Shown here: positions 12,006 to 28,044 of the stretch, one piece after another
Layout: each line of letters opens with the position of its first letter
Numbering within the stretch: the first letter of the stretch is position 1
Source of the DNA: a virus
DNA: 44,066 nucleotides
IMG/VR virus record: IMGVR_UViG_2162886015_000005
Coordinates: 1-44,066 of that record
Strand: one strand, 5' to 3'
Notes under the pieces: model-generated
The model's input: only the letters and a program-made list of their open reading frames with translations
Told to the model about the DNA's origin: nothing
Databases searched by the model: none
Translations under genes and position numbers: made by a program

Positions 12006-12245
12006 GTGACGGACACCGACCAATTGGCGAGAGACACCAGCCAAAGGGCCATATCATTGATTGAATCGCATGAGCGAGTTTGCACCGAACGTCAGGGGCA
12101 TATCATTGAAAGCCTGAACGACCTGAAGCGCGGCGTAGAGGGTCTTTATAGACGGTTTTGGGCCGCCGCGCTTGGCATCATCACCCTCTTGCTGGGGACA
12201 CTTGGGGCGCTGATCCATCTCATCATAACACGGGCTGGCGGTTAG
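12006..12245 (+). CDS. XhlA-like membrane-anchored coiled-coil protein
   Basis: 79 aa, GTG start. A charged helix (SQRAISLIESHERVCTERQGHIIESLNDLKRGVEGLYRRFW) is followed by a C-terminal membrane helix (AAALGIITLLLGTLGALIHLI). This order matches the haemolysin XhlA family, small phage lysis proteins with an N-terminal coil and C-terminal anchor. It probably joins the lysis machinery at the inner membrane. Confidence 0.6.
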   Translation: MTDTDQLARDTSQRAISLIESHERVCTERQGHIIESLNDLKRGVEGLYRRFWAAALGIITLLLGTLGALIHLIITRAGG

Positions 12246-12247
12246 GG

Positions 12248-13087
12248 ATGGGAGAGGGGCGAAGTAAGCACCTGTTCATTCCAGATGGGCAGGTGAGAAA
12301 AGACGTTCCTCTAGATTGGATTGATTGGGTCGGGCAGGCCATCGTTGACTATCTCCCCGATGTCGTTGTCGAGGGTGGCGACTGGCACGACTTCCCGTCC
12401 CTGAATAGTCATGCGGCGCCCGGCTCTGTCCAACTTGAGGGCACTCGCTACGCAGACGATCTGGCTGCGGGCAACGAGGCGTTCGCGCGCCTCTGCAAGC
12501 CGATGGAAGCGGAGATCGAGCGTAGGCGCCGGAATAAAGACAAGGGCTGGAAGCCTCGGAAAGTAGCCCTGCTAGGCAACCACGAAGCCCGCGCCGATAG
12601 AGAGGCCGCCAATAATCCAAAGCTGAAGGGGACGATTGGCAGCGAGGACTGCGACTTCCGAGATTGGGAAGTCCACCCGTTCCTGAAGATCGTGGAAATA
12701 GACGGCATTTGCTACAGCCACTATTTCCAATCATCGCACAGCAACCGCCCCATTGGTGGATCTATACCGAATAAGCTTTCCCGCATCGGTTCATCATTTG
12801 TGCATGGGCATGTTCAAGGATTGGACATGGGCACAAAGATGATGGCGAACGGAAAGACGCTATGGGGTGTCCAGGCTGGGAGCTGTTACCTCCACGAGGA
12901 GAGCTATCGCGGCGCGCAGGGCCAACGGCACTTCAGGGGCATAATTATTTTAAATGAAACGCACGACGGGGAGTGCTGCCCGATGGTGCTTTCGTTGGAT
13001 TACCTATGCAGGCGGTACACAGGCATGGGGCTGCACAGGTACATGGTCCTGAAGTACGCGCATCAGGGATGGGATCATTTGATATGA
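12248..13087 (+). CDS. Metallophosphoesterase (calcineurin-like)
   Basis: 279 aa from ATG 12248, just after the previous stop; a frame extends upstream only through the preceding gene. Metal-binding motifs are visible: VVVEGGDWHD (Asp pair), VALLGNHEAR (the GNHE block) and HGHVQG near residue 195. These belong to the calcineurin-like phosphoesterase superfamily. Substrate is unknown; phage members may act on nucleotides or nucleic acids. Placement after the lysis genes suggests an accessory role. Confidence 0.75.
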   Translation: MGEGRSKHLFIPDGQVRKDVPLDWIDWVGQAIVDYLPDVVVEGGDWHDFPSLNSHAAPGSVQLEGTRYADDLAAGNEAFARLCKPMEAEIERRRRNKDKGWKPRKVALLGNHEARADREAANNPKLKGTIGSEDCDFRDWEVHPFLKIVEIDGICYSHYFQSSHSNRPIGGSIPNKLSRIGSSFVHGHVQGLDMGTKMMANGKTLWGVQAGSCYLHEESYRGAQGQRHFRGIIILNETHDGECCPMVLSLDYLCRRYTGMGLHRYMVLKYAHQGWDHLI

Positions 13088-14828: not shown

Positions 14829-15010
14829 GGTGCGGGGTTCGTCCTAAATAACCCTTACCGTTCAAAGCCCCCCAATTCCCCCGCACCATACTATAACCCA
14901 TTGTATTGCCTCATTATGGCACCTTTCTTGACCGCACCAGCGATAAATTATCCTCTTGATTTTGCTCAACTAAATAGGCGGTGCGGGGCTCGTGCCGCTC
15001 AGGTGCGGGG
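14829..15010. other. Candidate attP region with four GGTGCGGGG arm-type repeats
   Basis: GGTGCGGGG occurs at 14829, inverted at 14879-14887, and again at 14980 and 15002 within the 3' end of the integrase gene. The copies at 14829 and 14980 extend to GGTGCGGGGyTCGT. Repeats around the integrase 3' end are expected of arm-type integrase sites flanking the crossover core. The core itself cannot be identified without host junctions. Confidence 0.4.
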
Positions 15011-16053
15011 ATAGAACGTCCCAGCATGTGCGCGGATTCGCGCCCAAGCCGTCTGCGGTTTGCCTCTCGCGTGTAAAGCTCTGCCATCTGGATTGTTTTC
15101 CAGCCAAAGATGGCCATGAGCTGATGCGCAGTCGCGCCGTTATCAGCCATTGTGGTTGCGGCGATCTTCCTCACCCCATGCGCCGACTTCTTCACGCCTG
15201 CCATCCGCGCGGCGCTGCTAAACGCATTCCCGAAGCTCTCCTTGGTGAAGGACTTCCCCTTCGCGCCGACAATGAATGTCAGATCCCCGCACGGGCCGGC
15301 CGCAAGCGTCGCCTCCAAAACCGGGAGCAGGGGAATGGTGACTTCGATCAACTCCCCACCCTTCTCCGTCTTGAAAGCGATCTCTCTGCCGTCAAGGCAA
15401 TTCCTGACATGCTGGCGGCCTAGCCTGGACACGTCGCCACGCCTGGGGCCGGTGTAGAGAAGCATGTCCAGCCAGACGCGCTCACACGTCCCAAGGGGCC
15501 AGCGGGCATGATAGGCAACCACATCGGCTTCCGTCCATTCCGGGAAGCCCTTTGTCTTGGGACGCTTGGGATTATCAACGTCCCGCGTCGGGTCGGTTTT
15601 GACATGCTGGGCTTTCTTGGCCCACCGAAATAGGCCCTTCATGGCGTCCAACCAGTTACGGGCTTGGGACGGGGTTGCGCGCCTAGCGTCCTTCCCGGCC
15701 TCTATGTCGCCCTCGGTGATGGCCGCGAACGGCTCACCCCCCGACTTGGCCAGGACGTGAAGCATGATGTTTTCCCGCTGGCGACGGGTGGCGGGTGAAA
15801 GTGACGCCCAAGCTGCCGTCTCGCGGTATTGTTCCCAAAGCCATTGGAGAGTCCCGGAGGCGGCTATAGCGGCCCGTGGAGACTCGTTCTCGATTGCCGC
15901 GTGGTAAGCAGTCCAAAACTCATCGCTGCCGTACTCGCCTTTTATACGAGTCCTGGGGCCGTCTCCGCGCCTGACATACCAGACGGTGCGGCCATGCCGG
16001 GTTCTCTCCTTGAGCAGCAGGGGCGGGGAGGGGCGGGGCATCTCCTCTATCAA
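14914..16053 (-). CDS. int: Tyrosine recombinase integrase
   Basis: 379 aa from a TTG at 16053 that overlaps the upstream stop (TTGA); an ATG at 16041 is an alternative. Integrates the phage into the host chromosome. Catalytic residues of the tyrosine recombinase family are visible: Arg in YTGPRRGDVSRL (residue 204 or 205), His292 and Arg295 in AHGVRK, and the nucleophile Tyr327 in AELYTREANRR. The first 80 residues form an arm-binding-like domain and 80-150 a SAM-like core-binding domain. It shows the phage is temperate. Confidence 0.93.
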   Translation of the reverse strand: MIEEMPRPSPPLLLKERTRHGRTVWYVRRGDGPRTRIKGEYGSDEFWTAYHAAIENESPRAAIAASGTLQWLWEQYRETAAWASLSPATRRQRENIMLHVLAKSGGEPFAAITEGDIEAGKDARRATPSQARNWLDAMKGLFRWAKKAQHVKTDPTRDVDNPKRPKTKGFPEWTEADVVAYHARWPLGTCERVWLDMLLYTGPRRGDVSRLGRQHVRNCLDGREIAFKTEKGGELIEVTIPLLPVLEATLAAGPCGDLTFIVGAKGKSFTKESFGNAFSSAARMAGVKKSAHGVRKIAATTMADNGATAHQLMAIFGWKTIQMAELYTREANRRRLGRESAHMLGRSIPAPERHEPRTAYLVEQNQEDNLSLVRSRKVP

Positions 16054-17170: not shown

Positions 17171-17374
17171 CTAAAGTTGCTGCTGGCAGCGAATGAGGAA
17201 CAGCGCGAACTCTTCCTTGCTGAAGACGCCTAGCGCCATGTCCTGCGATCCATCCGGCTTCTTGTCACCGCGCAATGTGACGTTCAGCTTCTCGGGGTTA
17301 CCGCCATCACGCTCGACATTCAGGAATGCGGGATCAAAGCCGCCGACTGTGACGGCACCAACTGTCTTGTTCAT
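17171..17374 (-). CDS. Hypothetical protein
   Basis: 67 aa from the ATG at 17374 (NKTVGAVTVGGFDPAFLNVE...), with GGAG 9 bases upstream. A compact predicted beta-rich protein ending in a helix (KEEFALFLIRCQQQL). It overlaps the stop of the upstream zinc-ribbon peptide gene by 4 bases. Confidence 0.6.
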   Translation of the reverse strand: MNKTVGAVTVGGFDPAFLNVERDGGNPEKLNVTLRGDKKPDGSQDMALGVFSKEEFALFLIRCQQQL

Positions 17375-17484
17375 GACTTTCTCCACATTTTTGGTTTCTT
17401 GCGGGGCTTAAGTTTTTTGCCGCAGTCCGCGCAGGTGACGGTGCCGTCGCGGTCCTTAACTCTCATCGTGCAAGCGCACTGCAT
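17371..17484 (-). CDS. Tiny zinc-ribbon-like protein
   Basis: 37 aa (MQCACTMRVKDRDGTVTCADCGKK...). Cys3, Cys5, Cys18 and Cys21 suggest a single zinc site, followed by a Lys/Arg-rich tail (KLKPRKKPKMWRK). GGAGGGTCTG sits directly before the ATG; the same leader motif precedes several other genes in this block. Stop overlaps the next ATG. Confidence 0.6.
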   Translation of the reverse strand: MQCACTMRVKDRDGTVTCADCGKKLKPRKKPKMWRKS

Positions 17485-17494
17485 CAGACCCTCC

Positions 17495-17527
17495 AAAAAG
17501 TGTGGGCCGAGCAGTGACGCCCGGCCC
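17495..17527 (-). terminator. Rho-independent terminator after the Acb2-like gene
   Basis: On the minus strand a 9-bp stem (GGGCCGGGC with GCTCGGCCC, one wobble), loop GTCACT, then ACACTTTTT. It begins 7 bases beyond the Acb2-like stop and divides the leftward operon. Confidence 0.7.
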
Positions 17528-17533
17528 GAATTG

Positions 17534-17782
17534 CTACGAGGTCAATTCCTTGACCACCCACATGACGGACTGCTCCAGGCTGGTGATGGCCAGGGAGTTG
17601 TACCGGCCCGGCTTCACGCGACCGAACAGGGCTTCCAGTTCTGCCGCCTTGGTCTTGATCTCGTCATGCAGGGCTTTCTCGTCATCCGCCAGCGCACGAT
17701 AGGTGGGGCGGAACCGGGAGACGGGGTGCGCCTGGTCAGCGCTTTGCCGGGCATCCGGCTTGCCTTCAAATAGATCTGCCAT
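17534..17782 (-). CDS. Acb2/Tad1-like cyclic-nucleotide sponge (anti-CBASS)
   Basis: 82 aa. After a flexible head, residues 27-80 read YRALADDEKALHDEIKTKAA, then ELEALFGRVKPGR, then LAITSLEQSVMWVVKEL. This two-helix hairpin pattern, with Arg60 before a LAxTxLExxxMWxVK helix, is that of the Acb2/Tad1 hairpin domain. Known members oligomerise and sequester cyclic di- and trinucleotides or related signals, blocking CBASS and similar immunity. Placement among small accessory early genes and the terminator directly downstream fit an anti-defence gene. Ligand cannot be told from sequence. Confidence 0.75.
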   Translation of the reverse strand: MADLFEGKPDARQSADQAHPVSRFRPTYRALADDEKALHDEIKTKAAELEALFGRVKPGRYNSLAITSLEQSVMWVVKELTS

Positions 17783-17783
17783 G

Positions 17784-18128
17784 TCAGTTCAGGTCCTTCT
17801 TGGTTACACGGCCAAACATGATTGCTTGGACGTCTGGTGATAAATGCCCCAGGCACTCTTGGCCGGCAGGGCTCGCGGCCCATTCGTCGCTTTCTTCCTT
17901 GGTGGCGTCGAACTCGCCTTGCGCCACGCGGGCGGCAAATTTGGTGAAACCCGCCGCCGACAGTTCTTTGTGAAGCTGGGTGATCGGACAATCGTAGGTG
18001 TCGGCATAGTCGTCAAACTCGCCGGTCAGGGCGCGCACGGCGAAGGCTTCATACTTCGCGGCGTTCTCCTGCGAAGCGATGGCGGCCACCTTCCGCAACT
18101 CCGCCGCCAGTTTTTCGGATGTTCTCAT
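17784..18128 (-). CDS. Hypothetical protein upstream of the Acb2-like gene
   Basis: 114 aa, mostly helical (SEKLAAELRKVAAIASQENA; DYADTYDCPITQLHKELSAAGF; KFAARVAQGEFDATKEESDEW). The stop is 1 base from the Acb2-like start, so the two are probably translated together. No recognised domain; guilt by association makes it worth testing as an accessory anti-defence gene. Confidence 0.6.
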   Translation of the reverse strand: MRTSEKLAAELRKVAAIASQENAAKYEAFAVRALTGEFDDYADTYDCPITQLHKELSAAGFTKFAARVAQGEFDATKEESDEWAASPAGQECLGHLSPDVQAIMFGRVTKKDLN

Positions 18129-18737: not shown

Positions 18738-18812
18738 TGGAGCGGACAGCCGGGATCGAACCGGCGACACCCAGCTTGGAAGGCTGGTGTTCTACCGCTG
18801 AACTATGTCCGC
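18738..18812 (-). tRNA. tRNA-Gly (anticodon UCC)
   Basis: A complete cloverleaf on the minus strand: acceptor GCGGACA with TGTCCGC, discriminator T and encoded CCA, D-arm with AGCGGTAG, anticodon arm CCAGC-CTTCCAA-GCTGG, and T-arm with GGTTCGATCC. Anticodon TCC reads GGA and, with wobble, GGG. It sits inside the leftward early block rather than at a genome edge, so it is probably a carried tRNA rather than the trace of an attachment site. Confidence 0.92.
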
Positions 18813-19919: not shown

Positions 19920-20126
19920 TTAAAGTCCGATAAATTCGACTTGGCGCTGTTCGTCGCCGGAGAAATAGAACCGCTCGCCCGCCGCCTGTCGGACACTGAC
20001 AAGCTGGTAAAGCCGCAGCGCCTGCCGCATCACCTGCGTCTTGCTCAAATCTTTTTCAGCGGCCAGCGTGTCGAGCGCGGCCATTTCCTTTTCGTTCAGA
20101 TTGAGCGTCATGGTGGTGGCTGGCAT
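19920..20126 (-). CDS. Ribbon-helix-helix DNA-binding protein
   Basis: 68 aa with GGAG 6 bases upstream. MTLNLNEKEMAALDTLAAEK, then DLSKTQVMRQALRLYQL is the ribbon-helix-helix layout: an N-terminal strand, two helices, and the SKTQVMRQAL turn. The C-terminal tail (GERFYFSGDEQRQVEFI) may bind a partner. It is probably a transcriptional regulator or an antitoxin-type protein; no toxin gene is recognised next to it. Confidence 0.75.
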   Translation of the reverse strand: MPATTMTLNLNEKEMAALDTLAAEKDLSKTQVMRQALRLYQLVSVRQAAGERFYFSGDEQRQVEFIGL

Positions 20127-22132: not shown

Positions 22133-22366
22133 CTAAAACGGGATCTCATCGTCAAGTTCGGCCGGATTCTTCGTGGCCGCGCCCTGGCCGGCCGGCGCCC
22201 GCTGCCGCTGCGGCACGATGGCGAACTGACCATCTGGCGGAAGGGCGTCGAGATAGACAGAAAAGCCGCCGTCATCCCGCTTCTTGGCTGAGCCAAGCTG
22301 GCGGGCGAACTTCTTGCCGTTCTTGGTTTCGATGAACTTCACACAGTCGAAATAGTCGGCGCTCAT
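22133..22366 (-). CDS. Small ssDNA-binding-like protein with SSB-type tail
   Basis: 77 aa. MSADYFDCVKFIETKNGKKFARQLG, then a beta-rich stretch (FSVYLDALPPDGQFAIVPQR), a linker, and the end DDEIPF. That end is the conserved SSB C-terminal tip that recruits repair partners. A short OB-like beta region plus an SSB tip beside a Rad52-like annealase (4-base overlap upstream) suggests a phage single-strand-binding partner. It is shorter than classical SSB. Confidence 0.65.
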   Translation of the reverse strand: MSADYFDCVKFIETKNGKKFARQLGSAKKRDDGGFSVYLDALPPDGQFAIVPQRQRAPAGQGAATKNPAELDDEIPF

Positions 22367-23088
22367 TCTGCTGCTTCCTTCTGGTTTCTGTTGATGGCCA
22401 TGAGTTGGGCTTGGAAAGCCTGGACGACTTGGCCGTACATCTCGGGCGACTTCACCTTGAGCTTGTCCATGTCGCTGCTGGTGTTGGGGTCAGAGATTGT
22501 GCCGCCATCGCCGCACCTCTTTGAAAGCCAAAGGTAAAGAGCCGGGAGCGTGGCGCTACCCTTGATGAGAGTTATCTGGCGCGTCACCCACTCCCGCGCC
22601 TGCCCATCCTCATCGCCATACCGAACCGGCGCAGACTTGCCGCCCAGCAGCGCCTCAAGCTTCTTGTATTCGCTCTGGATAATCCGCTTCTTATCGTCCA
22701 ACTCGACCCAAGGGCTGTCGAGATCGTAGAGATATTGGCCTATGCCAAACAGGACAGCTGCACGCTTGAAGGCGTCGCTATAGCTTCCCTTCTCAGCCAT
22801 TTCCTTGGCGTCCACCGTGTCACGGTCGCTGAGGGTTAGAGCGCCGTTGGAACGCCAGATCCATTCCTCGCCAACCTTGATCCCGATGCGGCAACAGCAC
22901 GTGCCATTCGGCATCGGGATATATTCGCATTGCCAGCCGGCGCCACAGACTTCATCCAGGCGCCCCATAACGTCTCGGGCGTCGATGTAGGCCAGGGCCA
23001 TACCCTTCTTCTTATCCTGGGTCATGCTTCCAACGCGCCACGAGATGCGGTCTGGCGGGAATGGCTTCTTCAGGTCAGCGAGATTCAT
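22363..23088 (-). CDS. Rad52-like single-strand annealing protein
   Basis: 241 aa. The Rad52/22 family core is visible: YIDARDVMGRLDEVCGAGWQ, then CCCRIGIKVGEEWIWRSNGA, then GSYSDAFKRAAVLFGIGQYLYDL. Such proteins anneal complementary ssDNA in phage recombination and replication. The C-terminal 80 residues are an interaction region. It overlaps the SSB-tail gene by 4 bases, giving a two-gene recombination module at the middle of the leftward block. Confidence 0.85.
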   Translation of the reverse strand: MNLADLKKPFPPDRISWRVGSMTQDKKKGMALAYIDARDVMGRLDEVCGAGWQCEYIPMPNGTCCCRIGIKVGEEWIWRSNGALTLSDRDTVDAKEMAEKGSYSDAFKRAAVLFGIGQYLYDLDSPWVELDDKKRIIQSEYKKLEALLGGKSAPVRYGDEDGQAREWVTRQITLIKGSATLPALYLWLSKRCGDGGTISDPNTSSDMDKLKVKSPEMYGQVVQAFQAQLMAINRNQKEAAE

Positions 23089-27410: not shown

Positions 27411-27740
27411 TTAGGCTGCCTTGGTCTGCTTTAGGGCTTTGAGGACGGCCAGGGCTTGGGCCTGATCCTCGGGTGCCATCCCGTCTATAACCTCCCGGAG
27501 GGCGTCAGAAACCCCCGGTGGGCGGCTTATGAGGTCGCCTGGCCGGCACGTCAGGGCGTCAGCCAAAGCCTCTAGGAAGGGTTGGGAATAGGGCTGGCGG
27601 CGGTTTTCGAGCCGGGAGATGCTGGCGGCGGTGGAACCCACCCGGGAAGCCAGCTGTTCCAGGGTCAAGTTCCGGGCCAACCGCCATTCCTTAAGGAACC
27701 ACGGCCCGAAAATCTTCCGCTTCTTACCGGACTTCGCCAT
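27411..27740 (-). CDS. XRE-family lysogeny repressor (CI-like)
   Basis: 109 aa from the ATG at 27740. Helix-turn-helix of the XRE/Cro-CI class: LARNLTLEQLASRVGSTAAS, then ISRLENRRQP, residues about 20-70. The C-terminal 35 residues are a short dimerisation-type helix region (APEDQAQALAVLKALKQ). There is no Ser/Lys peptidase domain, so induction is probably not by CI-type self-cleavage. It is flanked by two operators on each side. No ribosome-binding site is visible, and TATTAT ends 5 bases before the ATG, so the mRNA may be leaderless. Confidence 0.85.
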   Translation of the reverse strand: MAKSGKKRKIFGPWFLKEWRLARNLTLEQLASRVGSTAASISRLENRRQPYSQPFLEALADALTCRPGDLISRPPGVSDALREVIDGMAPEDQAQALAVLKALKQTKAA

Positions 27741-27776
27741 CGCAATAATATTGCGCGCGGCCGAGCTAGGGGTCCA

Positions 27777-27791
27777 TAACACCGGGCGTAA
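27777..27791. promoter_or_regulatory. Operator OR2
   Basis: TAACACCGGGCGTAA, upstream of the PR -35 and about 37 bp upstream of the repressor start. Confidence 0.75.
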
Positions 27792-27799
27792 ATCTCCGC

Positions 27800-27828
27800 T
27801 TGACGCCAGTTTACCCCGGGCGTAAATA
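27800..27828 (+). promoter_or_regulatory. PR-like promoter
   Basis: TTGACG, 17-base spacer, TAAATA, with OR1 covering spacer and -10. It would drive the Cro-like gene and the rightward early block. The expected start of transcription is at or next to the ATG at 27835, even though GGAGG lies just before that ATG. Confidence 0.7.
27811..27825. promoter_or_regulatory. Operator OR1
   Basis: TTACCCCGGGCGTAA, 34 bp from OR2; overlaps the PR -10. Confidence 0.75.
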
Positions 27829-27834
27829 GGAGGC

Positions 27835-28044
27835 ATGAGACTAGGCGAATGGCTGGATTCCAAGGGCGTTAAGCAGGCCGCGTTTGCCCGCCGCATTGGT
27901 TCGACCTCGGCAACCGTGCATCGCATCGTCGCGGGCACTCAAAACATTCCCCTAAGCCTGCAGGATGCCATCATCCGCGAAACGGACGGCGAGGTTACGG
28001 CCAGCGATTTGCATGCCGCATACGCGGAGGCGAGGGAGCAGTGA
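27835..28044 (+). CDS. Cro-like helix-turn-helix regulator
   Basis: 69 aa, divergent from the repressor. MRLGEWLDSKGVKQAAFARR, then IGSTSATVHRIVAGTQ is a helix-turn-helix of the Cro/YdaS type; the rest is a short helix tail. GGAGG lies 6 bases before the ATG. By position it should bind the same TTAC-GTAA operators and favour lytic growth. Confidence 0.8.
   Translation: MRLGEWLDSKGVKQAAFARRIGSTSATVHRIVAGTQNIPLSLQDAIIRETDGEVTASDLHAAYAEAREQ

Follow-up and report, generated by a model that had tools for sequence, protein, structure and literature searches.

What does a short protein encoded in the early arm of a temperate phage do? The window analysed here is a virus record of 44,066 bases, and a first-pass annotation made from its letters had proposed that one of its small genes encodes an Acb2/Tad1-like anti-CBASS sponge. 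Members of the Acb2 family soak up the small cyclic nucleotides that bacteria use as an infection alarm. On the evidence of sequence and a modelled structure, we consider it quite likely that the gene is a minimal Acb2-type sponge carried by a temperate podophage of alphaproteobacteria. The gene and its genomic landmarks are as follows:

17534..17782, minus strand: predicted Acb2-type cyclic-nucleotide sponge gene (82 aa, PF24729 match)
14914..16053, minus strand: tyrosine integrase (PHROG 1, 1e-28), at the distal end of the sponge gene's leftward operon
22363..23088, minus strand: Erf-like ssDNA annealing protein (PHROG 1097, 1e-45), upstream in the leftward early arm
27411-27938, minus strand: repressor

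The gene content identifies the window as a temperate P22-like podophage: in addition to the integrase, Erf-like protein and repressor it encodes a DnaD/O-like replication protein, a DNA ejection protein and, at 34.1-39.7 kb, a terminase, P22-type portal, scaffold and major head protein. The ejection and tail genes are followed downstream by a metallo-phosphoesterase gene (12158-13087, plus strand; PHROG 221, 6e-42). The sponge gene belongs to the leftward early arm, with erf on one side and int on the other, and its reading frame opens with an ATG preceded by a ribosome-binding-like site, AAGAAGGA. Its nearest bacterial homologues, 68-79% identical over almost the full length, come from Bradyrhizobium, Phenylobacterium, Caulobacteraceae, a Rhodospirillaceae MAG and Acetobacter. 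Since these are alphaproteobacterial, an alphaproteobacterial host for the phage is likely.

An HMM search for the Acb2/Tad1 hairpin domain, the check suggested alongside the original proposal, returned a match of the 82-aa protein to Pfam PF24729 (E 6.6e-14; 52.3 bits, about twice the curated cut-off of 27). The LAxTxLExxxMWxVK motif and the helical hairpin pattern on which the proposal had been based are both recovered, the former as the stretch LAITSLEQSVMWVVK and the latter, together with the domain match, in an AlphaFold2 model that consists of a two-helix hairpin (residues 33-53 and 60-81; pLDDT >90, with blocks of 93-98). The model contains no strands of three or more residues, and residues 1-30 are coil with pLDDT blocks of 52-75; at this low confidence, the model does not show the short N-terminal helix of Acb2. 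A single-sequence phmmer search of the PDB with the 82-aa protein matched no solved Acb2, so a profile was needed to reach these structures. A 60-sequence profile ranked Acb2 of Pseudomonas phages PaP2/PaMx33 first (PDB 8h2j; 1.3e-5), followed by Acb2 homolog 43 (9ptq; 6e-4), T4 Vs.4 (7uq2; 0.005) and Tad1 (0.012). A Foldseek search of 350,542 PDB chains likewise placed four Acb2 chains at the top (TM 0.61, rmsd 1.8 Å over 78 columns) and Tad1 and Vs.4 after them; the E-values are weak (0.2) because the hairpin fold is so short, and the ranking is still telling. Against viral models, the top 20 named Foldseek matches were nearly all Acb2/Tad1 hairpin proteins. In PHROGs the protein falls into an unnamed family (phrog_1454, 4e-7), PADLOC gave no matches in the sponge region and none of the plasmid records searched matched. 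Membership in the Acb2/Tad1 hairpin family is solid, and the 82-aa protein adds one more Acb2-type example to a kind of protein that is already known.

Residues of the predicted ligand pocket point in the same direction. In the alignment, Y28, K43, R60 and T67 correspond to Y11, K26, R67 and T74 of PaMx33 Acb2, of which we take Y11 and K26 to bind the dinucleotide. The equivalents of K26, R67 and T74 have the same within-helix spacing as in PaMx33/PaP2 Acb2, and the 15 residues from Y28 to K43 are identical in number to those from Y11 to K26. The alignment also pairs Y28 and T67 with Y8 and T68 of T4 Acb2, where Y8A is binding-deficient and T68M decreases binding affinity (PMC12657230). Among 68 relatives, Y28 is conserved in 94%, K43 and R60 in 100% and T67 in 99%. 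The MW-x-VK stretch looks more conserved than it is, because the pattern used to find relatives covers it; the pocket argument therefore rests on these four residues, which lie outside that pattern. Upstream of the hairpin, an N-terminal arm with D10-x-R12-Q13 is invariant in the 21 closest relatives among the matches listed.

When viral contigs were scanned with a profile built from seven members, at least 260 relatives were confirmed, and their neighbourhoods distinguish the window's own clade from a sister clade that is marked by a conserved D-x-R-T-x-N-N arm and by R-H-x-Y-R-V-L. Members of the window's clade have varied neighbours, with hardly any family recurring among 66. The genes that flank the sponge in the window are rarely present near its close relatives, and the 82-aa protein is 75-84% identical to relatives in otherwise different phages. 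Hallmark genes near members of this clade are erf or int, and in some cases a portal/capsid gene (L003) or a terminase-like gene (L014, L023). Such variety is typical of a mobile accessory gene. The sister clade is found mostly in head modules, and when 102 neighbours are sorted into named families, portal, terminase, head protease and head morphogenesis proteins rank highest. Its members (L005:7944-8180, which is Sinorhizobium phage Aussie gp37, L104, L114, L115, L119, L133, L143 and others) include many from alphaproteobacterial phages and prophages. In phage Aussie, gp37 lies between the head-tail adaptor and the stopper, and elsewhere the sister clade is found between terminase/portal and head protease.

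These locations bear on the possibility that the hairpin helps to assemble virions, or serves the phage internally in some other way, and has only its fold in common with sponges. In many phages a sister-clade gene adjoins one for a portal protein, head protease, head morphogenesis protein or head-tail adaptor, which would fit such a role, as would some close relatives near portal/capsid or terminase-like genes. The window's gene, however, resides in an early operon between Erf and integrase, far from the head genes, and its clade has no constant neighbour; moreover, the residues conserved in both clades are those of the nucleotide pocket. We regard an assembly role as unlikely.

For an Acb2-type sponge, carriage within head modules could have a different meaning. 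Mutations that escape CBASS fall in a gene for a major capsid protein (PMC10419184), and capsids are reported to be sensed by Thoeris systems (PMC12578639). We hypothesize that co-transcription with head genes would make a sister-clade sponge appear in time with the capsid trigger; our literature search found no report of the sister clade's stable head-module location. A tentative extension, which we find possible and somewhat doubtful, is that short Acb2-type sponges form a widespread lineage of alphaproteobacterial phages with two modes of carriage: a mobile accessory clade that includes the window's gene, and a clade fixed in head modules, whose sponge is produced alongside the capsid proteins that set off CBASS and Thoeris. 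In this extension, the conserved N-terminal D-x-R arm may add a ligand or interface unseen in known Acb2.

Next to be weighed is a Thoeris-type, Tad1-like sponge that would mainly bind cyclic ADP-ribose isomers. The Pfam hairpin domain is common to Tad1 and the 82-aa protein, and the hairpin motif R-E-N-A-x-A-x-T-x-x-E-E-A-x-MW of Tad1 (PDB 7uav, 8kbe) is shared, with a stretch of the form R-x-x-x-x-A-x-T-x-x-E-E-A-x-MW aligning with Tad1 chains at E 0.012. In Tad1, however, an N-terminal beta-sheet domain precedes the hairpin (PMC12043709), and this domain is missing from the window's protein, which has 82 residues against about 125-138. Foldseek TM scores are 0.27-0.36 to Tad1 versus 0.61 to Acb2, and a primarily Tad1-like sponge seems to us a rather remote reading. 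The composite Acb2/Tad1-like label of the first-pass annotation thus survives in its Acb2 part, on which the domain, the profile match to solved Acb2, the fold and the pocket residues agree, and fails for Tad1 proper; because the N-terminal beta-domain is absent, we prefer the name Acb2-type.

A comparison with solved Acb2 proteins defines what this Acb2-type protein retains. The Acb2 of Pseudomonas phages PaMx33 and PaP2 (PDB 8h2j, 8h2x, 8ixz) shares the Pfam domain and is the best fold match, both proteins have YR-L at the start of the hairpin, and the PaMx33/PaP2 gene, like the window's, is the last before a terminator. Overall identity is low (17% by Foldseek), and the 82-aa protein differs in lacking the inter-helix insertion of about 24 residues found in PaMx33 Acb2 and in having an extra N-terminal arm of 20-25 residues with a D-x-R-Q motif. 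T4 Vs.4/Acb2 (PDB 7uq2) has a TKL-EA-MWA-like motif in common with the 82-aa protein and is likewise encoded in an early accessory region, whereas its inter-helix region is longer and it carries D at the position of the R60 that is invariant in the window protein's clade. Acb2 homolog 43 (PDB 9ptq) is similarly short (76 aa) and free of the insertion, and its GREKSVFKTKLEEA motif matches the window protein's clade; its N-terminal half was unaligned in the profile search, and we found no paper on it in the literature searched. It is highly improbable that the 82-aa protein is a degenerate family member that binds no ligand. The insertion seen in PaMx33 and T4 Acb2 is absent, but the hairpin is complete, the pocket residues are retained, relatives from otherwise different phages stay 75-84% identical, and homolog 43 is also short.

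The sponge gene had also been described as coupled to an unknown 114-aa gene, as the last gene before its own terminator and as part of a possible anti-defence island. Three features bear on this description:

17784..18128, minus strand: 114-aa gene of a domainless conserved phage family, with 46 relatives in viral contigs and a one-base gap to the sponge gene
17504..17527, minus strand: intrinsic terminator directly 3' of the sponge gene, a 9-10 bp GC stem followed by ACACTTTTTG
17371..17484, minus strand: 37-aa CxC/CxxC zinc-ribbon-like ORF with a strong GGAGG ribosome-binding site, just past the terminator

The coupling geometry is real, because the stop codon of the 114-aa ORF and the sponge ATG are one base apart (TGA-C-ATG). 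The GC stem and T-run are equally real and stand right after the sponge stop codon (stem 17527-17504, minus strand; MFE -20.3 kcal/mol, z -3.5). The operon runs on past it, however: beyond the 37-aa ORF, further same-strand ORFs continue up to the integrase, which places the terminator inside the operon. The same leftward early operon contains, among its small genes, a tRNA-Gly (TCC; 18738-18812, minus strand) and a 68-aa ORF (19920-20126, minus strand) that has, judged by eye, the look of a ribbon-helix-helix regulator.

In other phages, relatives of the 114-aa gene are followed by a variable gene slot. This slot holds differing small genes, the commonest encoding a protein of about 80 aa with N-[QK]-E-A-I-[EQ]-M-M-[NK]-R-C-K, and apart from one Acb2-type case its genes have no known function. 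The exception among the 46 relatives is L147 (L147:3001-3600), an otherwise different phage in which the slot encodes an 86-aa protein that scores 67 bits to PF24729 and E 1e-11 by phmmer to a solved Acb2, and closely resembles PaMx33 Acb2 over its first 37 residues. Two diverged genes of the Acb2 lineage behind the same 114-aa gene thus modestly support an accessory slot at this position. We considered the 114-aa gene as a conserved sponge partner and rejected this role; it is absent near all other sponge relatives fetched, and only 1 of its 46 relatives has an Acb2-type gene behind it. An anti-defence island at 17.3-18.5 kb is weakly supported, in that the 114-aa neighbour's variable slot holds a clear Acb2 in L147, whereas no other gene in the interval matches a known family (nine other small ORFs around the sponge gene gave zero Pfam hits above cut-off).

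CBASS-type cyclases are commoner in genomes that carry sponge relatives. A CD-NTase (SMODS) scored above cut-off in 9 of 28 such bacterial genomes versus 12 of 150 genomes of the order to which the Bradyrhizobium genome belongs (Fisher p 0.001), and PglZ, a control defence gene that is not nucleotide-based, was not enriched (1/28 versus 3/150). The comparison is suggestive only, because the two groups are unmatched for genome size and taxonomy, and it is also confounded by sampling. A class-wide background (3/190) is unfair as a control because of the many very small genomes in it; the order-level background is better yet imperfect.

A sponge function is well supported by homology, from which we infer ligand binding and anti-CBASS activity. 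Acb2 is described as a hexamer with separate sites for di- and trinucleotides (PMC12043709). After infection or induction, the 82-aa protein would assemble into an Acb2-like hexamer and hold, uncleaved, cyclic di- and/or trinucleotides made by CBASS or the cA3 made by type III CRISPR; host suicide effectors would be kept off by the sequestration of these signals. The terminator behind the gene and the coupling to the 114-aa gene may together set the sponge level relative to that of the downstream genes.

Anti-CBASS proteins have been little studied in alphaproteobacterial phages, and our analysis adds a well-supported short Acb2-type protein and its relatives from a public viral collection, most of them linked to such phages. 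That close relatives move between unrelated phages and the sister clade stays in the head module raises a testable question, namely whether phages time the sponge with capsid production. An Acb2-type gene also occurs in Dunaliella viridis virus SI2 (L006; HQ332136), whose listed host is a green alga; this virus has an ERF-family gene and a tailed-phage taxonomy, and in truth it probably infects a bacterium present in the algal culture.
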